Assembly: GCA_026419785.1 (NCBI GenBank)
Contig: JAODTK010005632.1
Span: 62,001-126,000 of the forward strand
Reading direction: 5' to 3'
Source: Sclerodactyla briareus
Lineage: Eukaryota > Echinodermata > Holothuroidea > Dendrochirotida > Sclerodactylidae
DNA length: 64,000 nt
Positions within the stretch are counted from its first letter, which is position 1. Each line of letters starts with the position of its first letter. The notes under the pieces are model-generated. The model did no database searches and was not told the origin of the DNA. It saw nothing but the letters and a program-made list of their open reading frames with translations. The translations under genes and the position numbers were made by a program. Shown one piece after another: positions 2,957 to 62,792 of the stretch.

Positions 2957-3293
2957 TTAACCCTGTACCACCTCATTTGGTAGTGGATGGCTGCAGTCAT
3001 GACCAATAAGGTGTTCTGGACGTTCATGACGAGAGTAATTTCACTTGCTCGGTCCTCGGTATCCGACCGGAAGTTCAACTGGAATGGCGTGTTCTCGAGG
3101 CCAATCCTGCGGTTTTTTTTCTCCCATGATCAACACAGAGTCGAACGTATCGGCAGTGCTTACAACATCTTTTTGACATCAAAACTCATAGTCGAACCCC
3201 ACACAGAAGAAACGTCACTGTAGAATGCCGCATCAAGCCATCCGACAAACATCCATTCACGTTATCGTCAAAATTAGATCTTTCGTTTCTAAG
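2957..3293 (+). pseudogene. Ig-like domain exon, broken
   Basis: The acceptor is TTTATTCATAG and the donor is AAG|GTAAGTA. The frame starting at 2959 gives an Ig B-to-C strand pattern, ESNFTCSVLGIRPEVQLEWR, with a Cys and the core Trp at typical spacing. The downstream frame gives AYNIFLTSKLIVEPHTEE and then VECRIKPSDKHPFTLSSKL, matching E, F and G strands with the second Cys. Lesions: TAA at 3007-3009 where a Tyr or similar would fit, a one-base gain in the T8 run at 3113-3120, and a compensating shift near 3200-3222. The domain would be extracellular and might bind ligand; no ligand can be inferred. It could be either a V-like or a C2-like fold. Confidence 0.65.
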
Positions 3294-3535
3294 GTAAGTA
3301 GGTAGCCTGTTCTATTTTCATTGCTATGACTTGTTACTATGTTATCCTTTTCTCGCATTCAACTATCTTGTTATCACCAGTGATCAAACTGCACTGAAGA
3401 AGAGCTGTTATTGCTCGGGAAGCTTGCAACAAAAACATAATAACTGTTTCATTTACACTTTCCTAGCAACAATTGATATTCGTATCATCTAAGATCGAAA
3501 GAACGATGATGAAATTGATGAAAAATGGGTACGAA

Positions 3536-3590
3536 CAGATTCGAACCACAACGGTTGTCGAGTACCAGATCGACCACCTCCCTTAAGGAT
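3536..3590 (-). repeat. tRNA-derived SINE fragment
   Basis: The minus strand has an A-box-like GGTCGATCTGG and, about 20 bases on, a B-box GGTTCGAATCT. It is too degenerate and too short to be a tRNA gene. It sits in the Ig-to-TM intron of the receptor remnant. Confidence 0.4.
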
Positions 3591-3663
3591 GTCGCCTATA
3601 AAAATTAATGTGAAATATCTGAGCGAGAACCTATAGTGCCAATCTGGGTAAATTATGGACAGA

Positions 3664-3773
3664 TACACTCTAAATTAAACATGTTGGATATATTTTTTCT
3701 TTACCCAGTCCGGGTAATATTTCACCCATATTGAGTGAACGTTTACCCCGGCATTAACATTTTTTAGAGTGTA
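3664..3773. mobile_element. 110-bp MITE with TA-flanked inverted ends
   Basis: The ends are inverted copies: CACTCTAAA on the left and TTTAGAGTG on the right, each bordered by TA. This fits a Tc1/mariner-type non-autonomous element with a TA target duplication. The interior is non-coding. It lies in the intron between the Ig and transmembrane exons. Confidence 0.55.
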
Positions 3774-3799
3774 GGCAAAAAATCGGAAGTTGTGAAAAT

Positions 3800-3880
3800 G
3801 TCAGGCTCTACTGGGATTCGAACCGCGGACTGTGCGCTTCAAATGGAAGCCAACTGGTAGTCTCAAACCCGAGGAAACCT
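3800..3880 (-). repeat. tRNA-derived SINE fragment
   Basis: The minus strand carries a good B box (GGTTCGAATCC) preceded at tRNA-like distance by an A-box-like CAGTTGGCTTCC. No complete cloverleaf can be drawn, so a SINE or tRNA relic is more likely than a functional tRNA. Confidence 0.45.
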
Positions 3881-4181
3881 GATAACCTGTCACCGGACAT
3901 CTATCCTTGAACAATGCTAGTTCTACTGTAACCAGCAAGACAGTGACAGGTACAGGCTACGATTTCCGATTGCCTCTAGCGAGATATATTTAATAACGCT
4001 TTCTAAAATGAAAGTACACGATTCTAAATCACACTTATTGTTCATCCAAACCTGTCGAAATTCTCGACTGGGACATTCAGTGTCCAATGTTGGATGAATT
4101 TTCAAGATGTGCAGAATGGTCGGTAAATTTTGAATGTAAAGACCACCCACCGCCACATTACAATCGGTTCCTCGTTTTCAG

Positions 4182-4286
4182 GTGAAGACGATGTCCCTGA
4201 CTCTATCGGTTTATGGTGGATCGCTATAATCGTGGCACTGTTGCTGGCATTTTTCGGAATTGTAGTCTCACTGAAGTTATATATTG
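4182..4286 (+). pseudogene. transmembrane exon of the Ig-NACHT receptor
   Basis: The acceptor CTCGTTTTCAG ends at 4181 and the donor GTAAGG starts at 4287. The 105-base exon is fully open: a short acidic stalk (GEDDVPDS), a hydrophobic helix IGLWWIAIIVALLLAFFGIV, then SLKLYI. It starts needing one base from the previous exon and ends with one base (G), which joins the next exon as GAT. A single membrane span between the Ig exon and the basic juxtamembrane exon fits type I topology. This exon has no lesion, unlike its neighbours. Confidence 0.7.
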
Positions 4287-5519
4287 GTAAGGCTGTTGCG
4301 ATTACTTTTTTTTTTTTTTTATAGAATTAATTGCATGACCTCTCCCCAATCTTCCTTTCCAACGTTATGATTGACACTGAGACAATGATACGATGCGGAT
4401 ATGACTACAACCTCAGTCAACTAAAAGCGACATGCACCATTCTGGATTATACAATTATCAACCAACTTCTATTATATAGTTTCCACTGACGTATTCCGGG
4501 TGAACAATAAGTTACTGAAAATCACGCTGAATGGTAGCGGAGGCTGATCAGCACATAACAACACTATTAATGACGGGTCCCAACCCCGTGAAACATTTAC
4601 TAGCGTTGTAACAATGAAAATAATCGTCTTCTAGTCTACGAAGTGAAATAACTGGCCGTAGCATGGTATAGTTTTCCTCTTCCTTGAAAGAGGGGGAGGG
4701 GGGTCTGACAACTGAGGTCACCGCCACTTTGATGTCAACTGGTTCAGCTGTTATAGAGTGTCATTATTTTTATTTAAAACGGGAAATGGATGATGACGAT
4801 CGAGACAAATAACGAATGTGGTGTCGAAATAGACAGCTCCTCAACAACATTATAATTTCATCTAGCGAACCTTGTGTAGTACCGTTATTCGTTCCCCTCA
4901 TCGGTTCATACGACCTCTATTGTAACTGAACTGATCGTGTACGGAAGAAAGTGATATTATTCGTCTCTCTCGAGACGTGATTAATCAAGTCAAGTCATTG
5001 AAAAACATAGGTTGGCCAATGAACTGGAACAAAAGTAGACGAATGGTCGGATTATCAGCGGCTAAATTCACGAACGTTGACAACTGAATCCGTCACAAAA
5101 TAACCCATTATTTTTCAACGGGCTGGGCATCGAACCTCTTCAATCCTGTATATTCTACTATTAGACTGTATGTGATGAGATTGGTCAGGCACAGATAGCA
5201 ACATCTCCAATGCTATACTTTTCAGTCTTGCCAATTCAAACTCTTAGTAGAATGCGACAAACATAAAACAACAACGAATCCAAAGTATACGGTGTGAATC
5301 AGTCAACGCTGTAACCATACCGGCCTGACAGCACACGGCATCTCGTACATTTACCTTCTACTATTCAGATACACGTACTGTTAGCGTATATAAAGTTAGG
5401 GTAATCATTATCGCCCGCTAGCGGCACCAATAGCTGATAAATTTTGCTTCTCAACATAACATTAATTACATGGTTAGCACCGCCAATATATGTCTTCTAT
5501 TATGTTGTTTCCCACGCAG
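4287..5519 (+). other. intron, nothing recognised
   Basis: This is intronic sequence between the transmembrane and juxtamembrane exons. It contains a T-run at 4307-4320 and no further recognisable element. It ends in the acceptor TTCCCACGCAG. Confidence 0.5.
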
Positions 5520-5565
5520 ATAAGAGAAAATCGTCACAGAATACGCGACCAGTCGTGGGGGAGAG
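5520..5565 (+). pseudogene. juxtamembrane exon of the Ig-NACHT receptor
   Basis: This 46-base exon lies between the acceptor CCCACGCAG and the donor GTAAGC. With the G carried over from the transmembrane exon it reads DKRKSSQNTRPVVGE plus two bases. The basic cluster straight after the membrane span fits the positive-inside rule for a cytoplasmic segment. The two leftover bases (AG) join the A at 7120 to give Arg and place the NACHT exon in the frame where its conserved N-terminal motif is read. Confidence 0.6.
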
Positions 5566-5897
5566 GTAAGCTATGAGAAAACGATTTTCCGGAGTTCAAT
5601 TATGAGTACGTCTTTCCGTTAACTTGACGTTAGAAGCGATATCTTTATTGGTAGTATAAATGTTTCGTAGGCGAAGTGGGGAAAGTGAAACATCTGGGTG
5701 AATCGGGCGATTCAAAAACCGCCTACTATTGGTTAAAAGTCCGAATTCTTGGTTCAACACATCATCCGTTCCCAATATCAGTTAAATATTTTAGCACATT
5801 TGAATAGCACACAACGATTGCGGTGTTACAGTGCTAACACCAGACGAGTAATTACTGAAAAAGCTACAAGGGTTGGCAATATGGTCTCGGATATATA

Positions 5898-5966
5898 GTG
5901 CAGGTCTTTAGGTTTTTAGTTAGACACTGTATACAATGTCTAACTAAAAAACCTTAAGACCTGCAC
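5898..5966. repeat. near-perfect 69-bp hairpin in an intron
   Basis: The left arm (5898-5926) and right arm (5937-5966) pair over 29 bases with one mismatch and one bulged base, around a 10-base loop. It could be a young fold-back element or a microRNA-like precursor on either strand. Both arms are AT-rich in the centre and begin GTGCAGGTCTT. Confidence 0.75.
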
Positions 5967-7119
5967 GTAAGTTTTCGTAAGGTTCTTGACTATGTTTTAC
6001 ACTCATAATAAAATATTTAGATGGAAATCGAAGAGGGTTTGTAATTCACGTTGCCAATTGTGCAATTTTGCATACACTATAGAAGCTATACGCTCAGTAC
6101 GTACCCCTCCATTGCGTAAGATTGTTACTTATCGCGATACATAATGGGCCTAGGTCGATAATTGTGTTAAATACTCGACATATATCACGATAAGGTAATA
6201 TCACCTTTCGTTTTGGGTTAGGCGAATCAGGCCTACACTCAACGCTATGCCTTCGTCTTCTTGTAAAGCCTAGCCTATGACGACGCAGTGAAATGGAGAT
6301 TTCTCTATTTGACAGAATAGAGCAATATCTCAATGTTGAAGAATCGAAGTTACTGTAGTTAATGTACTGTATTCCGCCCAACGGTCTTGTAAAATCGGTA
6401 CTTTCGCACTCTGAAAAATACATATCCCGTGATAATCCATCACGAGGTATCAAAGTAAATCACTGCACTCGAATGAACCAGCCCGATCGAGCTGACAACT
6501 TAACGGCTAATAGGTGTATGTATGTGTGTACGTTGCGCCAGCCCATCGGTAATACTGAGACAGTGTCGCTCGCAATGTTCAAATGTCATCTCTCGGCTAT
6601 ACTTTCCTTAAATCTGATCCATGAAGGAATAGTGAAATATTTGCTATAGCGTTTTTGTAATTCCCTAAATGTTATGAATAATTGTCGAGTATTTGAAAAC
6701 CAAAACATCAATTTCACGGAACGCTATGTTAACTGGCCTACACAACACGACCTGCGATATGTTCAACATTTTGGACAACCGTTCACCAATTAACAGTGTT
6801 GGGAGATAAAAAAAATAATCACCTGAAAAGGTCCCTTTTCTGTCCATTCTTTGGATTAAAAAATAATGATGATGATGATAATATAATAATATTGAACGAT
6901 GATTATTGGTGCAGAGGCATCCGTTAACGAAATTTTATTTAAACTTCTTATGCTTTTAAGGGAATTCCCGATGCTAATTCCGTACAACGGGTGGGTACAG
7001 AATCTCACTGCAATGGTCACTTTGTATCGTCCTGTGAATCATGTCTCCGCGAAAATTAATCCAAATTGAATGGGGGGGGGGGGGATAACATCTGACATCT
7101 TGTTTGGTTTCTTTTACAG
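5967..7119 (+). other. intron, nothing recognised
   Basis: This is the intron before the NACHT exon. It holds a short GAT repeat near 6867-6880 and a G12-like run near 7073-7084. The long minus-strand open frame at 6094-6453 has no domain and no splice context. The intron ends with a strong pyrimidine tract and CAG (7119). Confidence 0.5.
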
Positions 7120-8602
7120 ATTCTTACGTCAGTATTAGTCGATCACTGTAACTAAATACAGAGTTCCCTACGACCAGGTACAACCGATTCATACCTCAAG
7201 GACGACGTATTGCGTCGATAAATATTGTTGAAGAGGTATCGAGTACCGGGAAATAGCGCATGATGTCTCTGGTTGAAGAAAGGACCGCTGCATTCCTATC
7301 ACGGAATATTCCATTGTAGGTACACTGCATTAACAGGTGTATTATTGAGGGGGACCCTGGCTACGGAAAATCTACGTTGGCTCTTCAGTTCATATATGAT
7401 TTGTGCAATGGCAGTCGAGTCTCCCCATCACATGAGGTAAGGTACTAGTATTCTTCGACTGAGACATTTGAGAGGAACACATTCATTAGCTGAGGCCATC
7501 AAGCACATCCTCTTACCACAAGACACGACTCTGAACGAAGGGGAGACGTAGGCAGTATCATAAGAGCTGAACCTCTTTGGCGTTGGTGTTAGATGGTTAC
7601 GATGAATGCCTGATCAGAAACCAAGATACGGTCATATCACATCAATTATCAAGAAATAAATGTTTTACAGAGTGCCAGAGTAGTGTTAACTACAAGGTCA
7701 TCTCATTTGCCGAAGTAGTTTGCATCGGAAAGCATTCGGATCAGTTGAGGGGGTTTGACGGCAATGCACGGGAAGAATTACATTCGAAAAGCTGTGGTTG
7801 GTGACGATACTGGAGCATTGGCTCGGATCTCTAAGCAACTACAAAAAAGCCCTGTACTCAGCGATCTCTTCAAGTCCCGCTTTTCTTTGTAATGTTTGCT
7901 CATATTCCCTAGAAAACTATTAATTGTATCTTTCCAGTCTGTCACAAGCTTCTTTCGGTATATGATTCATGCCCATAGCCACATGAGAATAAAATTCTAG
8001 TGAGGAGGCGAGTCGTTGCGAAGGACGAAGGAAAACCTGGCGAGTTTGGATCAAATCGCATTTATAGCGCTCACATGTGAAGATCAACAGAACGTTTTGG
8101 GACGAAAGTAATCTCCTAGAGCAACTTGGTGAAGACTTTTCTTCCGACATTATTCTCGCATTGTATTTTGATTGAGGGGAGAGGTATCAATTAGGCGCTT
8201 CCTCCTCACATGCTGAGCACAATATTATGAGACGAGGTACACTTCTATTCACCACAGGTTTGTTTTGTGAATGGTAGCGCTCACCACTTGTCCTAAATTG
8301 CTATTGCTTCGATGTTCTGACTATCAAGAAATTTGCCAGAGCATGATCCGTTTGATGACCTCGAATATTCATACCGATTTGCTGTCGGAATCAATAGCGA
8401 CTCGACACGAAGAATCCTCTATGCATTGCATGGATGTCAGGGATGACAACGGACCGCCATTTGTGTATCCTGGAAAGAAACTGTAGTACTGGAAGAACTT
8501 GCAGATGGTAAGGATATTGTATCCCATATGTAAAAATTGACAAAAGTAACATCCGGCCCTCAGAGGTCACTGTAACAACTTCTCGAAATCGCATCGTGAA
8601 AG
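7120..8602 (+). pseudogene. NACHT NTPase exon, heavily frameshifted
   Basis: Conserved NACHT-family pieces appear in the correct order in all three frames. They are KYRVPYDQVQP and TTYCVDK (7154-7222); Walker A IIEGDPGYGKSTLALQFIYD (7341-7400); LAEAIKHILLPQDTTLNEGE (7486-7545); Walker B LVLDGYDE (7583-7606); RKAVVGDDTGALARISKQL (from 7785); VPLFFVMFAH (7874-7903); VTSFFRYMIHAHSHMR (from 7942); LLEQLGEDF (about 8118); LFCEW (8260-8274); and FDDLEYSYRFAVG (from 8351). The Walker motifs are intact locally, but TAG at 7136, TGA at 7229 and many frame changes kill the ORF. In the family this domain binds ATP and drives oligomerisation for innate immune signalling. A weak donor (AG|GTAAAG) closes the block at 8602. 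No LRR repeats were recognised downstream. Confidence 0.85.
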
Positions 8603-11796: not shown

Positions 11797-13366
11797 CATC
11801 AATCTAAGAGATAGTAATCCAGTCTTTAAAATCCACCCTGATTCCCATGTTCTGACGAAGTATTCTTGGTAGAAGGTGGTGGAGGACTGTGTCAAAGGCT
11901 TCGGTAAAATCCATGATTATCAGGTCAACTTGACTTCGGTCTAAAATTCTTGCATAGTCTTCGATATGTTTCGCAGGATCCCTTTTTGCAGAATCCATGC
12001 TTTGCTGTCTGGAAGTATGATTCATGATATGGCGGTGTATGATATGTTCTAATAGTTTGCAGCAGATGCATGTCGGGGAAATTGGACGATCGTTGGCTGG
12101 GCAAGATCCGTCACCTTACTTGGAGATTGGAGACATGTTCGCATCAAGCCAGCCAGTCAATCTAATGATTCCTGGAGCAAAAAGCAAAAGTAGCGAACAC
12201 ATCTTGTCGCTTGCTCTTTATAAAATTCCAGAAGGGTCTATTGTTCTCATATTGTAAGCTAGTACTGTTAACGTTTTCATACAGAACGTGTACTGTTTCC
12301 TAGTCTTCCAATCGGCCTGGCGCTTGGGACGCTTGAGCTTCTCCCACAAGAAGCCATCAATGGCTTTACGAGCCTTTTGATAAAGTGACTGTCTATTCTT
12401 TTACGGATTGAGTTGCGTCCGTGATCCAAGGGCTGCTAGGTCTATAGGAGCTAAGCTCAGTCGGTACGTGCTACTCTATGGCTTTATTCGGAAGATGTCC
12501 ACCAGAAGTCTACATCTATTTCCAAGGAGGTGCGATTTAAGAGATGTTGGTACCAAGCCTCCATTTCATGGGTGATTTGAGTGAATTTATTCTTCTTGAA
12601 GAGGACAATCCTTCTCCGGGGAAATTTTACGAATTTGGCTTCGATACGTGCATCAATAACAGACACCATCATCATGGTCGCTGATTCTGGCTTGGACACT
12701 CACTTTGTTAACAGAGAGGACAATTCGTGAGTCGAAGGTCAGGAATGTTCCTGTCTCTAGTGGTTACACCTACTCCCTGTCCATGGCAATATCAGGTATC
12801 ATTTTGATCGGCCCTGGATACATAGTCGCAGTTTGAGTGAGTTTGTCTCCCACTCAATATCGAGGAGAATGGTATCACCTGAAAGCCATGTCGCTTCCTG
12901 TTTGGGAATTTTCTCGATGATAATTTCCAGTTTGTTCATGTAGGGCATTGTCTGTTTGTCAGGCTCCATATAATACACTAGTAATGTCACAGGGGTCACT
13001 CTTCTGACTTAAATACTCCCACAAACCACCTCACAATGACTTTAGATTTCCCTTTCTTCTTGTACATTATAGGCTATATTATTTGCTAAGAAGACAACGC
13101 CATAAGAGTCCAGTCTATCTTTGCTATAAACATCAAGTTTGATGGGAAGACCTCGCCGGGGCGATACCGTCATTAGACGAGACTCTACTACTACTAGAGT
13201 TCCTACAATCTGGGTCATCAGTGTCAATTAGGTTTTGGAAATTTAATAGTTTGGCCCGCAAGCTTTGGCATTCATGGTCAGTATCTCTAAGGACTCCTGT
13301 CTCTGTCGATTCTAGACAGGCTGTTTAATGGGAGTTGAGTAACAGGTTGGACAGTCACTGACCGTA

Positions 13367-36189: not shown

Positions 36190-36800
36190 ATTGTTATACG
36201 ACCCAGTATGTAAACAAGTGACCAGAAGTAACAACTTGGTCCAAAATGCAACAACTTTTCGACCAAAATGTAACAATTTGGAAAGGCGGGGTCCAGAAGT
36301 AACAAGTTCTACCCAAAATGTAACAATCTGAGGACTGTTTTCAAAACACAACACGGCTATGGGGGGGTTACCACTCGCCCTAGAGGAGGCTGTGGGCGTT
36401 CATGCATGACGAAATGGCGCAATAATAGTGGGGTAAATTTGGGGCCCCTCAGAAATCACATAGTCGACTCTAACCGTTATGCCGAGTATTATGCTGAAAC
36501 CCCGAACTCATAGCATGTTTCGTTTCCTGAGTAATGGGCGAGGGCTTCAATTAGGGCGTCGTGTGGGCGCATATGTCATCCCTTGATCCAACGAGACGCA
36601 AAACATCTTTTTTGGGGTATTTTGTGGCCTGATTTAATGGTATCTCTCACATATGACGTGCCTAGTTCTACTGCAATGGCGCTAGGCGTACTCTATTACT
36701 TATATGGGCGTTGCACCGCCCCTAAAATTGGTCAAATTGCTTATTACAGCCTAATTAGTCCAATTCAGTTTAACTAGCTTGTCGTGCTTGTTATATATTG
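36190..36800 (+). repeat. left arm of a 0.6-0.7-kb inverted repeat
   Basis: This segment matches the reverse complement of 43930-44664. It starts with TTGTTA...GACYCA, followed by degenerate CCAAAATGTAACAA subterminal repeats. Then come TTTTCAAAACACAACACGGC, GCCGAGTATTATGCTGA, GGGCGTCGTGTGGGCGCATA and GCCTAATTAGT. The arms differ by many substitutions and indels. Either they are the terminal inverted repeats of one large DNA element, or two copies of a smaller element in opposite orientation. Confidence 0.75.
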
Positions 36801-38619
36801 GTTGATTTTCCAATGGAATTGAGGAAACCCTACTCCCCAGGGGAAACTTTTCAGCCTGAATTGCTCCCAGAGGAAAGGGGCTGACAATTTTTTTACGCAG
36901 ATAGAGCACTCGAAATACCACTGAACCATGTTCTTGTTTTTGGCGTAGAACGTCATCAGTGGGCGCAGCATCCCCTGACGCAAGTCCATTTTTCACTATT
37001 AACGGTCGGGTTGGGAACCGTTTACAGCTCTGCGAGGGTAATTGCCTGAAATGAAATGGATTTCGTTGATTTATCGGCTGTGAAAATGCTCCATGCATTC
37101 GAAACAAGGTCTATCGATTTCCTCGTTATATCAGTGCTATGAACTGGCAACGTTTTGTCAAAGAGCTTGACATTATCTGTTTTAAAAAAATGCACCTGAT
37201 ATTAACCCTGACCTAAAATGGGGTTTTGTGAACATTTGCATTGGGCGCCATTTTGTTTTAGGGTGCCACGTGCCCCCCCCCCAAAAAAAAAATCTGGGGC
37301 GACCTAGATCTGTAATACCTATGAAATTAGAACTTTAATACGTAACTTTATTTTTCATCCCCTTAACCCCTCCCCTAACACCACCCACTTTGGTCACGTG
37401 ACCTTCACGGGTATTCGCATTAACGTCATTTGCTAAAATTTCAATGAATTTACTTATTTTTTTGTACATTAGTGTTACTGGGGGTGGGGAGGGGGTCGGT
37501 GAATCCACTTTCATGCTGATTACGATATGGGACCCCTCGTGCCGTACAGATTTTTTTCCGTAAGGAAGCGCCTTATTAGTATTTTGTGGGGGCGTACTCG
37601 CTAACGGTAGCTCCGATCGAACTAAAATGCCTGGAATCCCCAGAGGTCGGACACAGTGCGCAAATTAATGTATGAATAGGGAGTGTATAATTTCCATGAT
37701 GGTATCAACCGGGGACTTGTAAAGCTCATAATGAGATAAAACAAGTGCCGTCTTGTACTGGCGGACAGCCAAATTCCCCGGTCGGCCTAATACACGGTAT
37801 GTTTTCGCCATTTCTAGTTATGTTTGTTCACATATAACTGAACCTCTACTGACATCGTCATAACCATGGAATGACTAGGAACTTTGTCTACCACATTGGC
37901 CTAATATTTGCTAATCCGTGCCCAGCAACAAGTCTTTTGTTTGTTTGGCAAGCAAAACTCATTCCTAAGCCTGTGGCAGTGGACAGTGGAAACAACAACT
38001 CCCACAGAATTTGAATAGCTGACATTGTTGACCATCATAGTTATAGTTGGAACACTCCTCAAGTTACAATTCAACAGCATTTTAGGTTGTGTGTGGGGTG
38101 GGGAGGGGGGCCAGTTCCCTATGGCCAATGAAAGCTATCTGTGCCCACATATTTCTAGGTCACCAATAGAATTGGCCGAGGGATGTAATGTAAAACAAAT
38201 CCTGCAGAGGCCAGGACTAATGTAAATAGGGCCGAGAGCGAGATGTGATAAAAAGGACAAATCATCTTCCCCTTTTTGGGAAATAGGTTTTATTGTTAAC
38301 TAGGCTGCAGACATGGAAACTTCTGACAGAGATAAGGTAAACACTGTCAGCAGCAATTTTCCGAGCCTCAAACGGCCTGAAACATGCATTTGTGAGCAGT
38401 AGTAATTGACATAATGAACATTGCGAATCGAGCATGTCGAATCAAAAGGTGCAAATTTAATCATGGGGACGGATGTCCGGACTGTATGGGTCTAATAGCG
38501 GTCCGCCCGCCATAATTTTTCAGCTCCATCAGTCTTGTATGGCTGAGAAAAGGGCATTTTGGACTCTACAGTACTGATAAACCAAAACGAACCATTTTTG
38601 GTATACGCGTTTTTACTTT
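36801..38619. other. interior between inverted repeat and CR1, no gene recognised
   Basis: A 118-codon minus-strand frame (36751-37107) has no recognised domain. C- and G-rich runs occur at 37274-37283 and 37479-37500. If the inverted repeats are one element, this and 43152-43929 are its interior; no transposase motif was seen. Confidence 0.4.
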
Positions 38620-39366
38620 TTTGAAATCACAGAAATCCCCTCGAAAATATGAACACCAAATGGCAACACCAACGTCAAGACGTCCTCGAATTATTCTCTC
38701 AGTTTACAAAGTATTTTGCTTTCCATTTTCGTCATTATTCCTAGTTGCTCTCGTGAGTGGTTTGTGTTCTCTGTTCGTATTTCCAGTGGTGTTTGAGCGG
38801 TTTTGAGTCTCTCAGCGTGAGTTGTTCACATTTGGGGCTATTTTGCTCTAGGCCAATCGTTCCCCTCCCTAGCAAAGCCTCGCTTTCTGCGTCCGTACCT
38901 AGTGTGTAATTCGCTGGTCATAGCGTATGAATTAAACTTGGTGTGGATGCCGCTGTGGTGGAGTGTTGAGGTGCTATTGTATTTGCGTAAATAGGTCGTT
39001 TTGTCTCTTGCTTTTGTTTGCTCCGGGGGCCGTGTGCAGGTAGCACTTCTGGCTTCTTTGTCCGACAGTATTGCTTTTTTTTCTCCGTCAGTGGGTTAGT
39101 GCGCTTGCTGCTGTGTGTGGTGTATTTTCTATCTGATTAGTGTTGATAGTGTAGGCTATATAGTTTCTGTACATTTTGGACCTCCTATAATGTATTCTTA
39201 TTTTGTAAGTGCGACCGTGGTTAAAATGGAAACGTGAGTTAAACGAGTTGTTTGTGAGTGTTTTCCTTTTACTTTATTCTTTCTTTTGCCATAAGTATTT
39301 TTGTCACTGGTAAGCCCCCCTACTTTTTATTTTCGTACTTTATTTCTGGTCTATTTATATGCTGTT

Positions 39367-40440: not shown

Positions 40441-43060
40441 CTGTGCTAATGTTCAAAAGTATCAGGAACACGTTTGATGAGTTGCAGAGTATAGGACAGG
40501 AAACAAGCCTGACGTCCTTGGATTACAGAGTCGTGGTTGAACAGTGATATTCCACAGCCGAAGTTCCAACTTCCTGGTTTTTTGTTTATAGGCAAGATAG
40601 GATAGATACCTCTCCGTGGCATTGGTCGGTGGAGTTTGTTGTAGGTGAGGTCTGACTTGAATATTTGAAAAGGCCGATATTGGTGTAAGTTTTGGCAACT
40701 CGGTTTTGGTGTGAAATTCCGCTAACTATCTGGTATTCCACAGTCTTTATTAGTGGCGTTGTTGTACCTTCTCCAATTTTGATCTGAAGACAACAACTCT
40801 TTACTTTCTACCATGCTTTTGAAATTTCTGGGACGAGTACAATTATTATGGGTGATTTCTTGGTCCAATGGGACTAGTGGCAGTCATGGATCTGGCTTTC
40901 AATGTCAGCAGTGATTGTTCCTTTCTCAGCATGTAACATTTCCTACAGAAAGCATAATATTTTGGATTTAGTTTGAGCAGTGATCAAGAGTCTGTAGATA
41001 AGGTAGAGAGATTGGTAGGTAAGCTCGGTGCAAGTGATCACGAATTTTTTAGCTTTCAATGTGTCGTGTTCTGTCAATATCCACGCGGTAGAGCGTGTTC
41101 CTGTTGCGAGGAGGCCGATGTGGAGGCATTCCAGGTTTTGTAACAAGGTAGATTGGCATAAATTGGTAGGAAAGTACGAATGCTGTTTGACTCTTGGATG
41201 GTTCATTGAAAGGTTAAGAGGTTATGAAATTTACGTTCCTTGGAGGGAAACGCGCAGTAAGAACAAGAGGCCTTCTGGGATGAAAAGGGAAGTTTTTCTC
41301 GCCATCAAACGTAAGCGACCCTTATGGCGACTTTATCGTTCTTCGGGTCGGGTGATCATGAGGAGCATTCAAAAGTTCAGCCAAAAGCTTGTCCAGCGTT
41401 AGTTTCTGAGCTAAACTTATTCGAGAGCAGATTGCCTCTCATATCAAGGAGAATCCTCGTGCATTTCTCTTATGTGAGAGGGAAGCAGAAAGTCAAGGAA
41501 AACATTGGTCCTTTGATAGATTCCAACTCGGGTTGTACAATCAGCGATAGCCAGGAGATGGCTTAGGTTCTTAATAATTACTTCTCGTTTATGTTTTTAC
41601 TCATGAGAATGGATTAATTTGGTGACAGTTGTCGGGGTTCCCGCAGGAGTAGTGGTAATAAATGGGGTGGTTCGTCTGTTAAGTAAGGAGACACTGCAGA
41701 AGCCCAAAAGTGATAAAGCTCCTGGTACTGACGGAGTTATCATTTCTTACTAAAATCCTTGCCGACGAGTTGTTGTTCCCTTAGCTCTTATTTTCAATAA
41801 GACTACAATAAGGTATTGTTCCGGATGATGGACGAGAGCAAATGTTTCTCCTATTTTCAAGAAGGTAAACGGTCTCTTTCTTGTAATTACAGGCCAGTCA
41901 GTCCTACTAAGTGTAGTCTGAAGGAATGGAAATCAATCATTCGGGATCATATGGTTGATTATTTCAATGAGCATAGTTGTTAGAGCTTCTCAGCATGGGT
42001 TTGAGGAAGTCGTCGTGTTTGACTAATCTCTTGAAATTTATGGAAGATGTTACATGTTTTCTGTTGCCAACGGCAATGCTGTTGATTATAATTTTCTGGG
42101 TTTCAGAAAACTTTTGACAAGGTCCTCATGAGCGTCGCTCGTCAAAGGTTTTGGAGAGCTTTGGTATTGAGGGGAAGTTCAAGTGGACGTGAGTGGCTCC
42201 ATAAGATAAGGAACAACGAGTTGTCATGAATGGGCGGTCGTCTTCTTGGCAAAGGGTCACTAGTGGGGTTCCCAAGGGATCGGTTCTTGGGCGCTCCGTT
42301 GCTGGCGTAGAATGACGATCTTGAAGCGTTATGTTTAATTCCAGGGTTAAAGAAGGTTCGCAGACGGATTACTAAGTTGTTCGGGAGGTCGGTTCGAATG
42401 ATGATGCTGCAATTGTTCAAAGGGATCTGGATATAATTTCCAAATGGTGTCTTCCGAAATGGCAAATGTTTTTCAATGTCGGGGGGAAAAGTGCAACGTA
42501 TGCATGTTGGTTTCACAATAGCAACGTTCCTTCAAGTTGAATGGCCGCATATCAGGAGGTGTCCAGAAGAAAAAGTCTTGGGTTGGTTTCATTCTCTTTG
42601 AATGGTCAAGCAGTGTGCCGAAGATGCTAGAAGAGGTAACTGGATTCTTTGATTGAGACGTCACTTCAGTTCCTTGATAAGATATTGTTGTCAGGCTGTT
42701 TAAGCAACTGGTTGAGACCGACACCTAGAGTATTCTGTACAAGTGTGGAATCCCTACCTGCAAAAGACAGCAGGGTAACGGTTGACAGAAACGTTCAGGT
42801 TAGGCAATAGAATGACACTGTCTGGAAAAATTATCTTACGAGGAAAGATTTTCCAATGTTACTGCAAATTGAGGCCACTGTTCAAGCTCGTGGCAAGCGC
42901 TGCGAATGGACATCGTAACTATTTCTTCTCGCAGGAGGATCAATGAGTGAATTGTTTTCATGAAACTGTTGTTTGCTCTAAGAGTGTGAATGCGTCAAGG
43001 AAACAGTCTTATTATTTTTTTTTCAGAAATCACGGGCGTCGTAGTATTAGTGTGGTTTTG
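40441..43060 (+). pseudogene. CR1 ORF2: endonuclease and reverse transcriptase, broken
   Basis: The start resembles the CR1 AP-endonuclease (FFCANVQKYQ, then KPDVLGLQSRG, 40430-40530). Reverse transcriptase blocks follow: DKAPGTDGV (about 41710), CNYRPVSPT (about 41885), a box near 42100-42120 that should carry FDKV, GVPKGSVLG (42256-42282), and a shifted FADDTK-like box near 42355-42375. The thumb and C-terminal end (FFSQRR...NEW) lie at about 42930-42955. Stops and frame changes occur throughout. The normal job is target-primed reverse transcription at a nick made by the endonuclease. Confidence 0.75.
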
Positions 43061-43151: not shown

Positions 43152-43929
43152 GATCGCGTAGAGAAACTAGGCACGAGAAATCGATTGGTGAACTTTCAGG
43201 TCGATACTATCATTTTTGGATGAGTAGTGGTTGAAAAAACAACTGACGACAGGCATTTTCAAGTTGAGCGTCACAATAGGCCAATAGCATTACCGGCTAT
43301 GTCCCAGCACGATAAATGCAATGAAATCAATTCCATTTCAGTGCACGAACCCTCTCAGAGCAACAAACGGTTACGGTCCTAACGGGTATAGGAAAAAAAT
43401 GGGACGTTCTACGCAAAAAATAACCAACATGTTCGATAGTATTTTCAGTAGTATTTCCAGCCCCTTTCAGTTGGGAGCCTATTTAGGCTTGACAAGTCTT
43501 TGTAGTATATCTAGTGCTTGTATATAATTAATTACGATTTGACTTATACCGTAAAAACGGATTATAATACATACCTGAATATTAATTGGCGCGCATGGGT
43601 GTGATGAAGCAAGTTTGGTGAAGGTTCCTCACCCGGCGTTCAATGGACTACGTTTAGGTCGGGGTATTTTCAGTTTTCCCCCTAACCCCTCTTAAATCCC
43701 CTAACCCCTCTATAATTATTTTTCAAAATGGGCAGTACCCGAGAAAACGAAGAAAATAATGTAGAAATAGTCCAAGACGACCTAGGTAAGCTCGTTTAAA
43801 TACAAAAGCTACATGAATTAATTACGTGACAACATGGCGACTTATGTGCAATGCCGAACGGGTTCGTGGGGGCAGTGGCGGGGAAACCCCACAATTCGTT
43901 CAAATATGAAACAATATTTAAAACAATGA
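43152..43929. other. interior sequence before the right inverted-repeat arm
   Basis: No domain-bearing ORF. Pyrimidine-rich tandem CCCCTAACCCCT words lie at 43678-43710, just upstream of a possible start exon (43728). Confidence 0.4.
43728..43785 (+). CDS. candidate first coding exon
   Basis: ATG in a good start context (TTCAAAATGGGC) opens MGSTRENEENNVEIVQDDL, then one base and a donor (CTAG|GTAAGC). The short, acidic peptide with an immediate strong donor looks like an initiating exon, but no downstream exon is recognised and it points into the right inverted-repeat arm. Chance is a fair alternative. Confidence 0.25.
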
Positions 43930-44664
43930 ATGGCAAGCCTAGTTAGACTGTTTATGAACTAATTAGGCTGTATTCGGCAATTTGACCCATTCTAGGGGAG
44001 TAGGCAACGGCCTATATAGGCAAATAGGAGTACGCCTTCGTGCCATCGCAATGGAACTAGGTACGTCATATTTTGTAAAGTACCACCAATTGAAATCAGA
44101 GCCACCGAATACCCCAGATAGGATGTTTTTGCGCACTTGTTGGAGCAGGGCTGCTTATGCGCCCACACGACGCCCCAATAGACGCCATCGCCAAAACTCA
44201 GGAAAGCAACATGCTATTGAGTTCGGGGTGTCAGCATAATACTCGGCATAAAGTTTAGAGTCGAACTATTTCATTTCCGAGGGGCGTAAATTTACCCCAC
44301 CCAAGGATTGCGCTATTCCGTCATGCATGCGCCTTTGGGTCTGAGACTGCAGTCGAAGTTAGCCAGACTCCGATAGCATCCTCACCAATTTGCACGCCAT
44401 TCCGACGCCCACAGCCTTCTCTAGGGCGATTGACGTAACACCCCCATAGCCGTGTTGTGTTTTGAAAACATTCCTCAGAGTGTTACATTTTGGTCAAAAT
44501 GTTGTTACATTTTGGACCATCTTCAAGAGTTGTCACATTTTGGGCGAAGTTGTGTACATTTGGCCCCACCGTTCAATGTTCACATTTTGCGTCGAAAGTT
44601 TTTTACATTTTGGACCAAGATTGTTTACATTCATCAATTGTTACATAATGAGTCGTAACAAGGC
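43930..44664 (-). repeat. right arm of the inverted repeat
   Basis: Reverse-complement counterpart of 36190-36800. The subterminal repeats are clearest here: ACATTTTGG-type words recur about every 20-35 bases between 44480 and 44625. The outer ends (TAACAAG on the right, TTGTTA on the left) correspond, but I see no clear target-site duplication beyond them. Confidence 0.75.
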
Positions 44665-46331: not shown

Positions 46332-46437
46332 ATAGTATAGTATAGTATAGTATAGTATAGTATAGTTATAGTATAGTATAGTATAGTATAGTATGTATAG
46401 TATAGTATAGTATAGTATAGTATAGTATGGTATAGTA
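46332..46437. repeat. TATAG pentanucleotide satellite
   Basis: About 20 units of TATAG with two small irregularities. Confidence 0.95.
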
Positions 46438-58810: not shown

Positions 58811-60966
58811 CCTCCAGAATGCGTGGTCTGAAAAAATGGGATATGGTGAGAGATCCGCGCGAACGACTAGGAACATTAGCAAATATCATACATTATAACA
58901 TACTTGACCACGTGATTTGAGTTAAAATCGTCATCGAAGCCTTCCCAGGTGTTCCCCTTAAGAAAAAATAGACCCTATTATATTCCCGTTCTTCGGCCAA
59001 GATTAGGAGTTCAGCCTCCGTTGCTGCATTCATTATGCTCTTTTCTGGAAGTACAAATCCGTCCGTTGAAACTCAATTTGACGGTACCCACGAAAAGTGT
59101 GGCGACCTTGCAAGGCCGCCGTCAGTCGAAACATCGCTGGTCAGATTACATAAATTTAGAGCTGCCAGGCTGGTTGTAGCTTCAAAACGGTTGGTGTTTA
59201 TCCCTTGTAAAAACCTCAGCATTGAGAGTGAAGGGGTCTGTTGGTGTGGAAGGACAATGGAGAGGTTGATGAGGTGCCACATCAATTTGTAGGGCCTGTA
59301 GGGCTGACAAGCGCCTTGCCATTTGAAGAGAAAAGGTTAAGACTAGCATAGGACTATTATGTATGAATGATGTAATAATGAGCTCATTCCGATTGATTCG
59401 AATTTCTGCTCTAACGGTGACTATCCGTTCGAAAATGGGGCAATTGAGTCAATAATTAGGCCTAATTCGGTCTTTCCAAAATAGTATCTCGAAAACCTAT
59501 ACCAAACTGACATGGAACTTTTATCATTTGGACAAGGCAAGGACAAGTTCTCATTTGGTGTAGCTTTTGGGGACATGTGTTGGTTTACATACTATTTGAC
59601 CTCATTTCCCACCGTTTTGGACGATGACACGCACAAACTTTATCTGTAGAAGCCAGTGAAAGTTGCAGACCAGTATCATGTTTTAGTGAACATCTCAGAT
59701 GGTTCTTGTCCCGCAGGCAAACTACCACGCCTATACTTCGACGGGTGTGGAAGGTTAGGGCCCAAAGACCAAAAACAACTTTGGGCCCGACTTAGGGGCA
59801 AATTGTTATCACTTCCTGGGTCAATAACTTGTCGCCCAAAATTCAAGGTTGTCTGCTCTTTCAGAAGCTAGCAACATTCCTTTATCCAATTCACAAGCTA
59901 AAACGCCAATAGCGCTGTTATCCAGAGCACTATGACAATTGTTTGACTGATAATCAGTGCTGTTGCCGGAAAATTTGAGAACGCCCACCCCGTTACCGTG
60001 GCCGGAAGCAACGGAGACTGCATTTTTTCGGTGAATACAAACAGTGAGTTTCTTTTCTATTTTTTTTTAATCGAAAGGTAATGTTAGGAATGTCATCATT
60101 CATATAATGCCCCAGCAGGCCTAGAATACTTGACCAAAAAATATAGGAGACTGTGAAATGTATAGGCTGCTAGCCTAGCTAAACAACGTATTGGGCTAGA
60201 CCTCCATTTGCTCTGTACGGAGACAAGTTAGGGTGATGATCCCTGTTATTCATTTTTGCTTGAAAAGGCATGGGAACCCTGTCCCCGAACCACACAGCGG
60301 ACTATACAGAGGTTTGATGTTTTAGTATATTCTAGGCTATATGGTCAGGTCTGGGGCCTACGTTTTTCCTCAACAATTTTTACAGTGGAGTCCAAAACGC
60401 ATTTTTGTTCTATTTCCAAGCTCATGGTGGGTCAAATACACTAGTGTGCGCTGATTGAGTACAAAACCTTTCCTTTTCATTCTGGCCGAGGGTCAATGCC
60501 TCAAAGTAAGGAGGCACTTTGTCAAAACGCGTCACACAGGCTCGGGGAAAAACGTCTGGGGTTCTTCGGTTCAAAATGTTCGAAAGTTTTCATACATAGT
60601 CCCAGCCCTGTCAAAAGGCTCAGTACTGGCCGTCTGAAGAATCAACGACGGTAAAATACAAAAGTGTCGCTAGAGAGCGGGTCTGTAAACATACACAATC
60701 TCTTATGTATAACTTCTTGACTATCGTATCGATGGGAATAACGCTTGGCGCCAGTGTGTTCAAATAAACTAGATGGGCCCTCTATTATCAAAATTGTTTG
60801 AAATGTAAGAAAGTTTCCCCAAAACAAATGTTCATGTTAGATGAAATCGGAAGCAAAAATTATATAAACAATGCAATTTATGGGACTCAGGCTAATTTGC
60901 ATATTTCTGTGAATTCTCATTTCCCGTGTAATGTTTTTGTTTTGATGTTATGCAATTGCCTATGCA
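58811..60966. other. non-coding, nothing recognised
   Basis: No domain-bearing ORF. A 10-bp-arm hairpin (GGGCCCAAAG / CTTTGGGCCC) sits at 59758-59788. A CpG-richer patch with GCCGGAAG (about 59990-60045) precedes an AG|TGAGTT sequence and could be an old first exon, without further support. Confidence 0.35.
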
Positions 60967-62792
60967 GATTGCCTCTAATATAAAGGAGAATCCTCGTGCA
61001 TTTTTTTCGTGTGTGAGGGGGAACGAGAGGGAAGAGAAAGTCAGGACAGCAGTGGTCCTTGATAGATCCCGGACCGGGTAGTACATCAGCGATAGCCAGA
61101 GATGGATACGGTTCTTATAATTATTTCTCGTCTGTTTTTACTCTGAGACTTGGATAAATTTTGGTGGACCTAGTTGTCGGGGTTCTCCGCTAGTATTGGT
61201 AATATGGTGTGGTCGCCTGGTTTAGTAAAGGAGGAAACTGCAGAAGCTCCAAAGTGATAAAGCTCTGGTCGACGGAGTTTATCCTTTGTACTAAAATTCC
61301 TTTGCCGACGAGTGGCTGTTCCACTAAGATATTATTTCAATAACCCGACTCTACAAGAAGGTAGGGTTCCCGGATGATGGGGAGAGCAAATGTTTCTCCA
61401 TTTCATAGAAAGGTTAAAACGGTCTCTTCCTTTGATTACAGGCCAGTCAGTCTTACTAGTGTGTCTGCAAGGTAATGGAACCAATCATGCGGGATCATAT
61501 GGTTGATTATTGCAATGAGATAGTCTGAGTAGGGATTCCAGAGGGTTTAGGAAAAATCGTTAGTGTTTGGACTAATCTCTTGAAATTCGGAGATGTCACA
61601 TGTTCTGTTGACAACGGCAATGCTGGTGATATAATGTCCGGACTTTCAGAAAGCTTTTTGACAAGGTTCCTCATGAGCTCTCTTGCTCAAGTTGTGAGAG
61701 GCTTGGCACATTGAGGGGAATGTCTGAAGTGGATCGGAATGGCTTCATAATAGGGGGAACAAAAGAGTTGCATAAAGGCGGTCGGCTTCTGGCAACAGGT
61801 CACTAGGGAGTCCCCAGGGATCAGTTCTTGGGCCTACTCTTTCTGACGCGTATATTGACGATCCTGAAGGATCTGTTCATTCCAGGTTAAGAAGTCGCAG
61901 ACGATACTAAGTTGTATCGGGGGGTCAGTTTGATGATGTGCTGCAATTGTCAAAGGGATTGGATATAATTTCCCAAAATGGTCTTCCGACTGGCAAATGT
62001 TTTAATGTCGACAAGTGCAAAGTTTGCATGATGATTTTCACAATCGCAACGGCTTCCTGCAAGTTCGAATGGCCAAATATCCAGGAGGTGATTTCGAAAA
62101 AGACGCTTGGGGTTTGTTTGATTCTTCTTTGAAACATTCCAAGCAGGTGCGAACTGCCAGAAGAGGTAATTTGGATCTTGCTGATTAGACGTCACTTCAG
62201 TTTCTTGTAATGATATTGTTGTCAGGCTGTTAAGCAACTGGTAAGAACGCCCCTAGAAATTATCGTACAAGGTGGAAATCCTACTTTGCAAAAGACAAGA
62301 AGGTAAGTGAAAACGTCAGCCGTAGGGCAACTAGAATGATTCACTGTCTCAAAAATTTATCCTACGAGGAGAGATTAAGGGGTCTTGGTCCAAACTACAA
62401 GGGAGCGGAGGGAGAATTCGCGGTGACTTGATCCAGGTTTTCAAAATTGGCCATCGGATCGATGGCTGTCCTTCCACTACTTTTCCAATAATTTTCGAAT
62501 GTTACTGAAAATAGAGGGACACGTATAAGCTTCTCGGCAAAGCGCTGAAAATGGATCGTGACATTGTAAATAATTCTTATCGAGAGGACTGGATCAATGA
62601 ATGGAATTGTCTTCTGAAAAATGTTGTTTGCTCGAGAGTGTGAATGCTGTCAGAACAGTCTTGATTTATTTTTCAGGGAATCACGGCGAATTTTAGTCAA
62701 GTTTTAGTTCATTTTTCTTTACTGGGGGTGTGGCTTCGGGTCGTTATGAGGATTATGTCAGTCCTGACCCTGTATTCACTAAAACTAAAATG
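60967..62792 (+). mobile_element. 5'-truncated second copy of the CR1 family
   Basis: Sequence from CAGATTGCCTCTAATAT onward parallels 41430-43151 throughout. Examples are AAGGAGAATCCTCGTGCATT, GATAAAGCTC...GACGGAGTT, GGGATCATATGGTTGATTAT, CAGGGATCAGTTCTTGGGCC (the GVPQGS box) and the 3' end ATTCACT...ACTAAAAT. The catalytic-box region (CGCAGACGATACTAAG, about 61894) is closer to FADDTK than in the longer copy. It begins inside ORF2, between endonuclease and reverse transcriptase, as expected for incomplete reverse transcription. Many one-base deletions break the frame. Confidence 0.85.

Follow-up and report, generated by a model that had tools for sequence, protein, structure and literature searches.

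AjNLRC4 of Apostichopus japonicus is described as a coelomocyte membrane receptor with immunoglobulin (Ig) domains outside and a NACHT domain inside the cell, and it is reported to mediate phagocytosis of Vibrio through actin (PMC8699970). The published map places an Ig-like domain at residues 31-132, an Ig domain at 251-353, a transmembrane (TM) segment at 483-503, NACHT at 600-757 and a second TM segment at 776-795; the authors count two TM segments and report CARD and leucine-rich repeats (LRR) as absent (PMC8699970). A second such gene of A. japonicus, AjNLR-new (PIK48001.1, 1197 residues), also combines Ig, TM and NACHT, here with NACHT placed outside and Ig inside by TMHMM, backed by binding, antibody and localisation assays (PMC13133943). 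In Chiridota heheva, NLRs carry other domains, including Ig V-set, that were not found in sea urchin NLRs (PMC8913654). Here we present the analysis of a locus at positions 2957-8602 of a 64-kb stretch of Sclerodactyla briareus DNA (the window; C2875:62001-126000, where C2875 is our label for the contig, from an assembly of 319 Mb in 3171 contigs). With good confidence we regard this locus as the 3' half of a decayed Ig-TM-NACHT receptor gene of the family typified by AjNLRC4.

Structure of the locus and domain evidence

A comparison of C2875 with the paralogue C1995 by blastn gave four colinear exon blocks and one 37-base match. The Ig exon of the window is 71.8% identical over 439 columns and the NACHT exon 72.3% over 1608 columns. 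Two further C1995-like blocks, C2875:54998-55282 and C2875:57294-57904, lie 5' of the window; the first is 70.5% identical over 295 columns, the second 62.3% over 645. They are the remains of exons that correspond to the upstream Ig-like exons of C1995. Because of these blocks the start of the gene is placed upstream of the window, which itself would hold only the 3' half, with the 5' remains lying outside.

A read-through of the NACHT exon matched Pfam NACHT at E 6e-15 and NLRC4 in the PDB at E 3.5e-7, scores that are inflated by the choice of frames by hand; paralogue queries, which involve no picking of frames in the window, settle the matter. The open frame of C2175b matched window positions 7348-8090 at E 4e-16 and, in another frame, 7742-8596 at E 9e-6. 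The Ig exon of C1995 matched 2959-3196 at E 3e-22, and its TM exon, which occupies the same interval between Ig and NACHT in C1995, matched 4181-4264 at E 1e-3. The TM exon has a best 19-residue hydropathy of 2.88, and its only Pfam match is a sub-threshold one to FtsX (E 0.0013).

The Ig, TM, basic juxtamembrane and NACHT blocks all lie on the + strand (Table 1), in the single orientation claimed by a preceding reading of the same DNA by a model that saw only the letters (the sequence-only reading). Its statement that splice phases agree at two of three junctions is supported by our own reading by eye, which included C1995 and a further paralogue, C2074; all exon edges of the locus are splice-like borders judged in the same way. 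The Ig-TM junction is phase 1/1 in C1995 and C2074 and two bases short in the window copy. The junction from TM to juxtamembrane exon is phase 1/1 in the window copy; the TM exon of C2074 also ends in phase 1, and that of C1995 is one base out. Between the juxtamembrane and NACHT exons the junction is off by one base, in the window copy as in C1995. A basic exon resembling that of the window was seen by eye at the matching place in C1995 (L009 9897-9949).

Table 1. Coordinates of the exons of the locus and of further features of the window
Feature	Position	Strand	Remarks
Ig-like exon, frameshifted	2957..3293	+	Last, C2-like domain of the ectodomain; paralogue match, blastn; edges by eye
Transmembrane exon	4182..4286	+	Match to C1995 TM exon; outer flank acidic, inner flank basic; both ends read as phase 1
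Short basic juxtamembrane exon	5520..5565	+	Acceptor and donor present; similarity to C1995 by eye only; weakest part
NACHT exon, with helical stretch before and further region after	7120..8602	+	Pfam, PDB, blastn and paralogue matches
Near-palindrome, about 70 bases	5898-5966		In the juxtamembrane-NACHT intron; blastn self-match 91%; no inverted repeat listed for it by the repeat search at its settings
Reverse-transcriptase-like fragment	about 11804-12115	-	By reading
Inverted repeat pair	36401-36809 / 43902-44329		About 80% alike
Repeat pair	41427-42850 / 60964-62376		About 80% alike
ATAGT microsatellite	46332-46437		About 21 copies

A Pfam scan at E 0.001 of 139 of the 169 listed open reading frames of the window found RVT_1 only and no LRR or CARD, a result limited by broken frames and short exons. 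The RVT_1 match was made by one frame (E 4.7e-4). A weak Ig match at window position 38772 (E 0.009; 0.025) was judged a chance match because no TM or NACHT match follows it.

Probable decay and assembly error

Against the C2175 reference, the measured part of the NACHT exon of the window copy shows 17 frameshifts and 4 stops, versus 4 frameshifts and no stop in C1995 and 1 frameshift and no stop in C2175b. These lesions have to be read against the quality of the assembly. Counts of matches with internal stops gave a mixed picture of this quality: 6 of 14 HSP70 matches contained one, as did 11 of 39 kinase matches, 1 of 7 tubulin matches and 2 of 16 actin matches. This count overlooks frameshifts between matches; hence three actin last exons of about 540 bases each (C1260:170250-170900, handled as L056, together with L054 and L055) were read by eye. 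All three are frameshifted in an otherwise nearly perfect protein. The assembly therefore carries indel errors, and part of the damage seen in the window copy is an assembly artefact. The lesions counted by eye in the actin exons were 1, 3 and 3 (one a garbled stretch), or 7 in 1620 bases, a rate at which about 4.5 would be expected in the NACHT part of the window copy, where 21 were found.

In nucleotide alignment, indels of a length that is not a multiple of three number 43.6 per kb when the NACHT exon of the window is compared with that of C1995, and 4.7 per kb in the C2175 pair; two actin pairs give 16.9 and 14.5 per kb, a background above the count by eye. The share of these indels in homopolymers (23 of 63 for the window and C1995 NACHT exons versus 6 of 9 and 2 of 8 for the actin pairs) is not informative on error.

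Changes at codon positions 1/2/3 that are specific to the window copy are 29/26/31, 28/28/24, 27/27/29 and 26/25/24 with four outgroups, which are not independent of each other; those specific to C1995 are 18/14/34, 20/10/31, 13/8/21 and 16/9/24. The two copies differ at positions 1 and 2 taken together (P 0.018, 0.007, 0.0002 and 0.004) and do not differ at position 3. By a Fisher test on position class the contrast is weaker (P 0.07, 0.015, 0.12 and 0.06), a point against decay. The best reading of the flat distribution in the window copy is a loss of constraint. An origin from error only is disfavoured because sequencing error should raise position 3 too, with the proviso that saturation at this position lowers the power of the comparison.

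The strongest alternative, which we nevertheless consider unlikely, is that the locus is a family member still in working order whose frameshifts stem from assembly errors. It is in keeping with the broken actin exons, with the finding of at least one frameshift in all 24 NACHT loci measured, and with the Ig exon of C2984, which is equally dense in such indels (55 per kb). The surplus of lesions over C1995 and C2175b argues against it, as does the excess of window-specific changes at codon positions 1 and 2 and not at 3, since substitution errors should raise all three. With the care that the broken control exons demand, the window copy is probably dead, in agreement with its designation as a fossil in the sequence-only reading. 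Because actin exons in the same assembly are also broken, C1995, C2175b and other members with few lesions may still be live; frameshifts in this assembly are not readable as signs of a pseudogene without a control.

COX1 was searched for in the assembly and found no match at E 0.001. The HSP70 matches, 14 in all, are confined to two contigs; the assembly may thus be incomplete.

Gene family in the genome

The paralogue C1995 has Ig, TM and NACHT exons in the same order as the window, preceded by upstream Ig-like exons, and a TM exon likewise stands between Ig and NACHT in C2074. Searching the genome with the NACHT exon gave at least 51 matches at E up to 0.01, and with the Pfam NACHT model alone at least 6; both searches scored the best candidates only, and the window copy itself is among neither set. 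With the Ig exon as query, 18 matches were obtained at E up to 1 and merged into 14 loci. Ten of these (9 of 13 without the window copy) are followed within 20 kb by a NACHT match in the same orientation, at distances of 3.2 to 14.6 kb from Ig to NACHT; three of the ten partners, at the second C981 locus, C22 and C3143, are weak matches. The four Ig loci without a downstream NACHT match are C2360, C407, C2545 and C1955. As judged from these comparisons, Ig-TM-NACHT genes form a family with a shared exon order in this genome, which bears out the family part of the earlier claim of a dead member of an expanded family. As to the intact paralogues that the sequence-only reading deemed probable, C1995 shares the exon order, and among the 24 NACHT loci measured no frameshift-free copy is present.

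In a tree of these 24 NACHT loci the window copy, C1995 and C2984 cluster together (0.998) and are joined by C2485a and C2485b (0.847), and the Ig-linked loci C981 and C2074 are placed elsewhere. Upstream of C2983, C2898, C2175 and C2011, a search of some 6 to 10 kb found neither an Ig nor a TM match. The NACHT match L001 (C1315:212402-212887) has an open frame of 369 residues and is only distantly like the Ig-TM-NACHT family.

The linkage of Ig and NACHT has a nominal P of about 1e-27, which treats related duplicates as independent and is compatible with a neighbouring Ig-TM gene and NACHT gene that were copied as a pair but whose products were always separate proteins. The juxtamembrane-NACHT junction, one base out in both copies read, would also fit such a pair. 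We find this arrangement improbable, since the TM exons of the window copy and C2074 end at phase 1 splice donors by reading, the distance from Ig to NACHT varies between loci, and AjNLRC4 and AjNLR-new were each described as one protein that carries all these domains (PMC8699970, PMC13133943). A chance assembly of unrelated exon-like pieces, to which only the sub-threshold Pfam scores of the Ig and TM pieces taken alone would lend colour, is refuted by the colinear blastn blocks, with about 72% DNA identity to C1995 in the Ig and NACHT exons, and by the ordered matches of queries from relatives in the same genome, and hardly deserves credence.

Several further results count against an Ig-TM-NACHT gene of the AjNLRC4 type. 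The Ig exon of the window stays under the Pfam cut-off (C2-set_2, E 0.086; 0.0058 with corrected frames), as does its counterpart in C1995 (0.088); the counterparts in C2074 and C981 have no Pfam Ig match, and the first Ig-like exon of C1995 has no Pfam match at all. A family Ig was found upstream of only 7 of the 24 measured NACHT loci, leaving 17 without. The joining of the Ig, TM and NACHT exons is taken here from genomic sequence, and membership in the AjNLRC4 type is argued from architecture. Seven AjNLRC4 oligonucleotides (six primers and one siRNA) had no match at up to 4 mismatches in the loci compared or in the window; of four actin primers run alongside, actR hit the actin of C1260 at a single mismatch. 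The AjNLRC4 primer EX-F had no match genome-wide at up to 3 mismatches.

Ectodomain, membrane topology and proposed function

The upstream exons of C1995 read as one V-like domain followed by a C-plus-V-like pair, and the two-domain exon passes the Pfam ig model with 24.9 bits against a cut-off of 21.8. Together with the Ig exon of the window this suggests an ectodomain of four Ig-like domains in the order V-C-V-C, a reading rather than a measurement. By hand count, about 440 to 450 residues precede the TM exon in C1995, leader not included, and TM and NACHT are spaced by about 92-95 residues. A signal peptide was not found at the locus. The flanks of the TM helix are acidic on the outer and basic on the inner side in both the window copy and C1995. 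The positive-inside rule relates such charges to the orientation of membrane proteins, and Ig is therefore placed outside and NACHT inside; the type I membrane protein predicted by the sequence-only reading fits this charge pattern.

The stretch VPLFFVMFAHI lies 179 residues past the Walker A strand, has a hydropathy of 1.38-1.63 and aligns with CFIPLV of NLRP3. We take it to be the NACHT GxP helix. Added to the NACHT start of AjNLRC4 at residue 600, the same offset leads to residue 779, within the second TM segment mapped in that protein. From the offset, the hydropathy and the alignment to NLRP3, we read the second TM segment of AjNLRC4 as probably a NACHT helix buried in the domain rather than a membrane span. 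The NACHT-outside topology of AjNLR-new would perhaps result from a signal peptide mistaken for a TM helix by prediction; the binding, antibody and localisation assays, which support NACHT outside, speak against this (PMC13133943). Taken as a whole, the picture of an expanded family of single-pass type I receptors with V-C-V-C ectodomains, in which the second TM of AjNLRC4 is a buried GxP helix and the topology of AjNLR-new is doubtful, has the odds only slightly in its favour. With one clear TM helix and a NACHT helix that can be mistaken for a second, the topologies published for the A. japonicus receptors merit re-examination.

The intact form of the gene most likely encoded a single-pass type I surface receptor. 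Its predicted parts are a signal peptide, four Ig-like domains, a single TM helix followed by a basic juxtamembrane piece, and, in the cytosol, NACHT as an ATPase switch; the frames scanned showed no LRR. By analogy to the work on AjNLRC4, the Ig domains would bind microbes, the receptor would then oligomerise, and the NACHT part would contact actin, leading to engulfment of the microbe. This role has probably been lost in the window copy.

Comparison with known systems

Vertebrate NLRC4 and NLRP3 are cytosolic, with an LRR sensor and a CARD or PYD effector. Their PDB entries share with the present family the NACHT core and the CxxPL stretch that follows. In the window copy a TM exon lies upstream of the NACHT exon. 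The NLRs of C. heheva are alike in joining NACHT and Ig in a holothuroid; in the available text the word 'transmembrane' is absent, and neither a TM segment nor a mechanism is described there (PMC8913654). Like the predicted receptor of the window family, AjNLR-new carries Ig, TM and NACHT on a single chain, but its published orientation is the reverse of that predicted from the charge flanks of the window family.

The closest system is AjNLRC4, in which an Ig ectodomain is likewise followed by TM and then NACHT, and with which C1995 agrees in ectodomain length and Ig positions. AjNLRC4 has 482 residues before the TM segment, compared with the hand count for C1995 given above, and 97 residues between TM and NACHT, compared with the 92-95 estimated here. 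It differs in the two TM segments counted by its authors, where the window family has one clear TM helix, and in that the window copy is broken. The sequence-only reading foresaw an unusual receptor class; the class is not new, such receptors having been published for A. japonicus in 2021 and 2026 (PMC8699970, PMC13133943). The locus is real and probably a dead member of this already known kind of receptor, and the architecture published for A. japonicus appears in S. briareus as a multi-copy genomic family with at least one probably dead copy.

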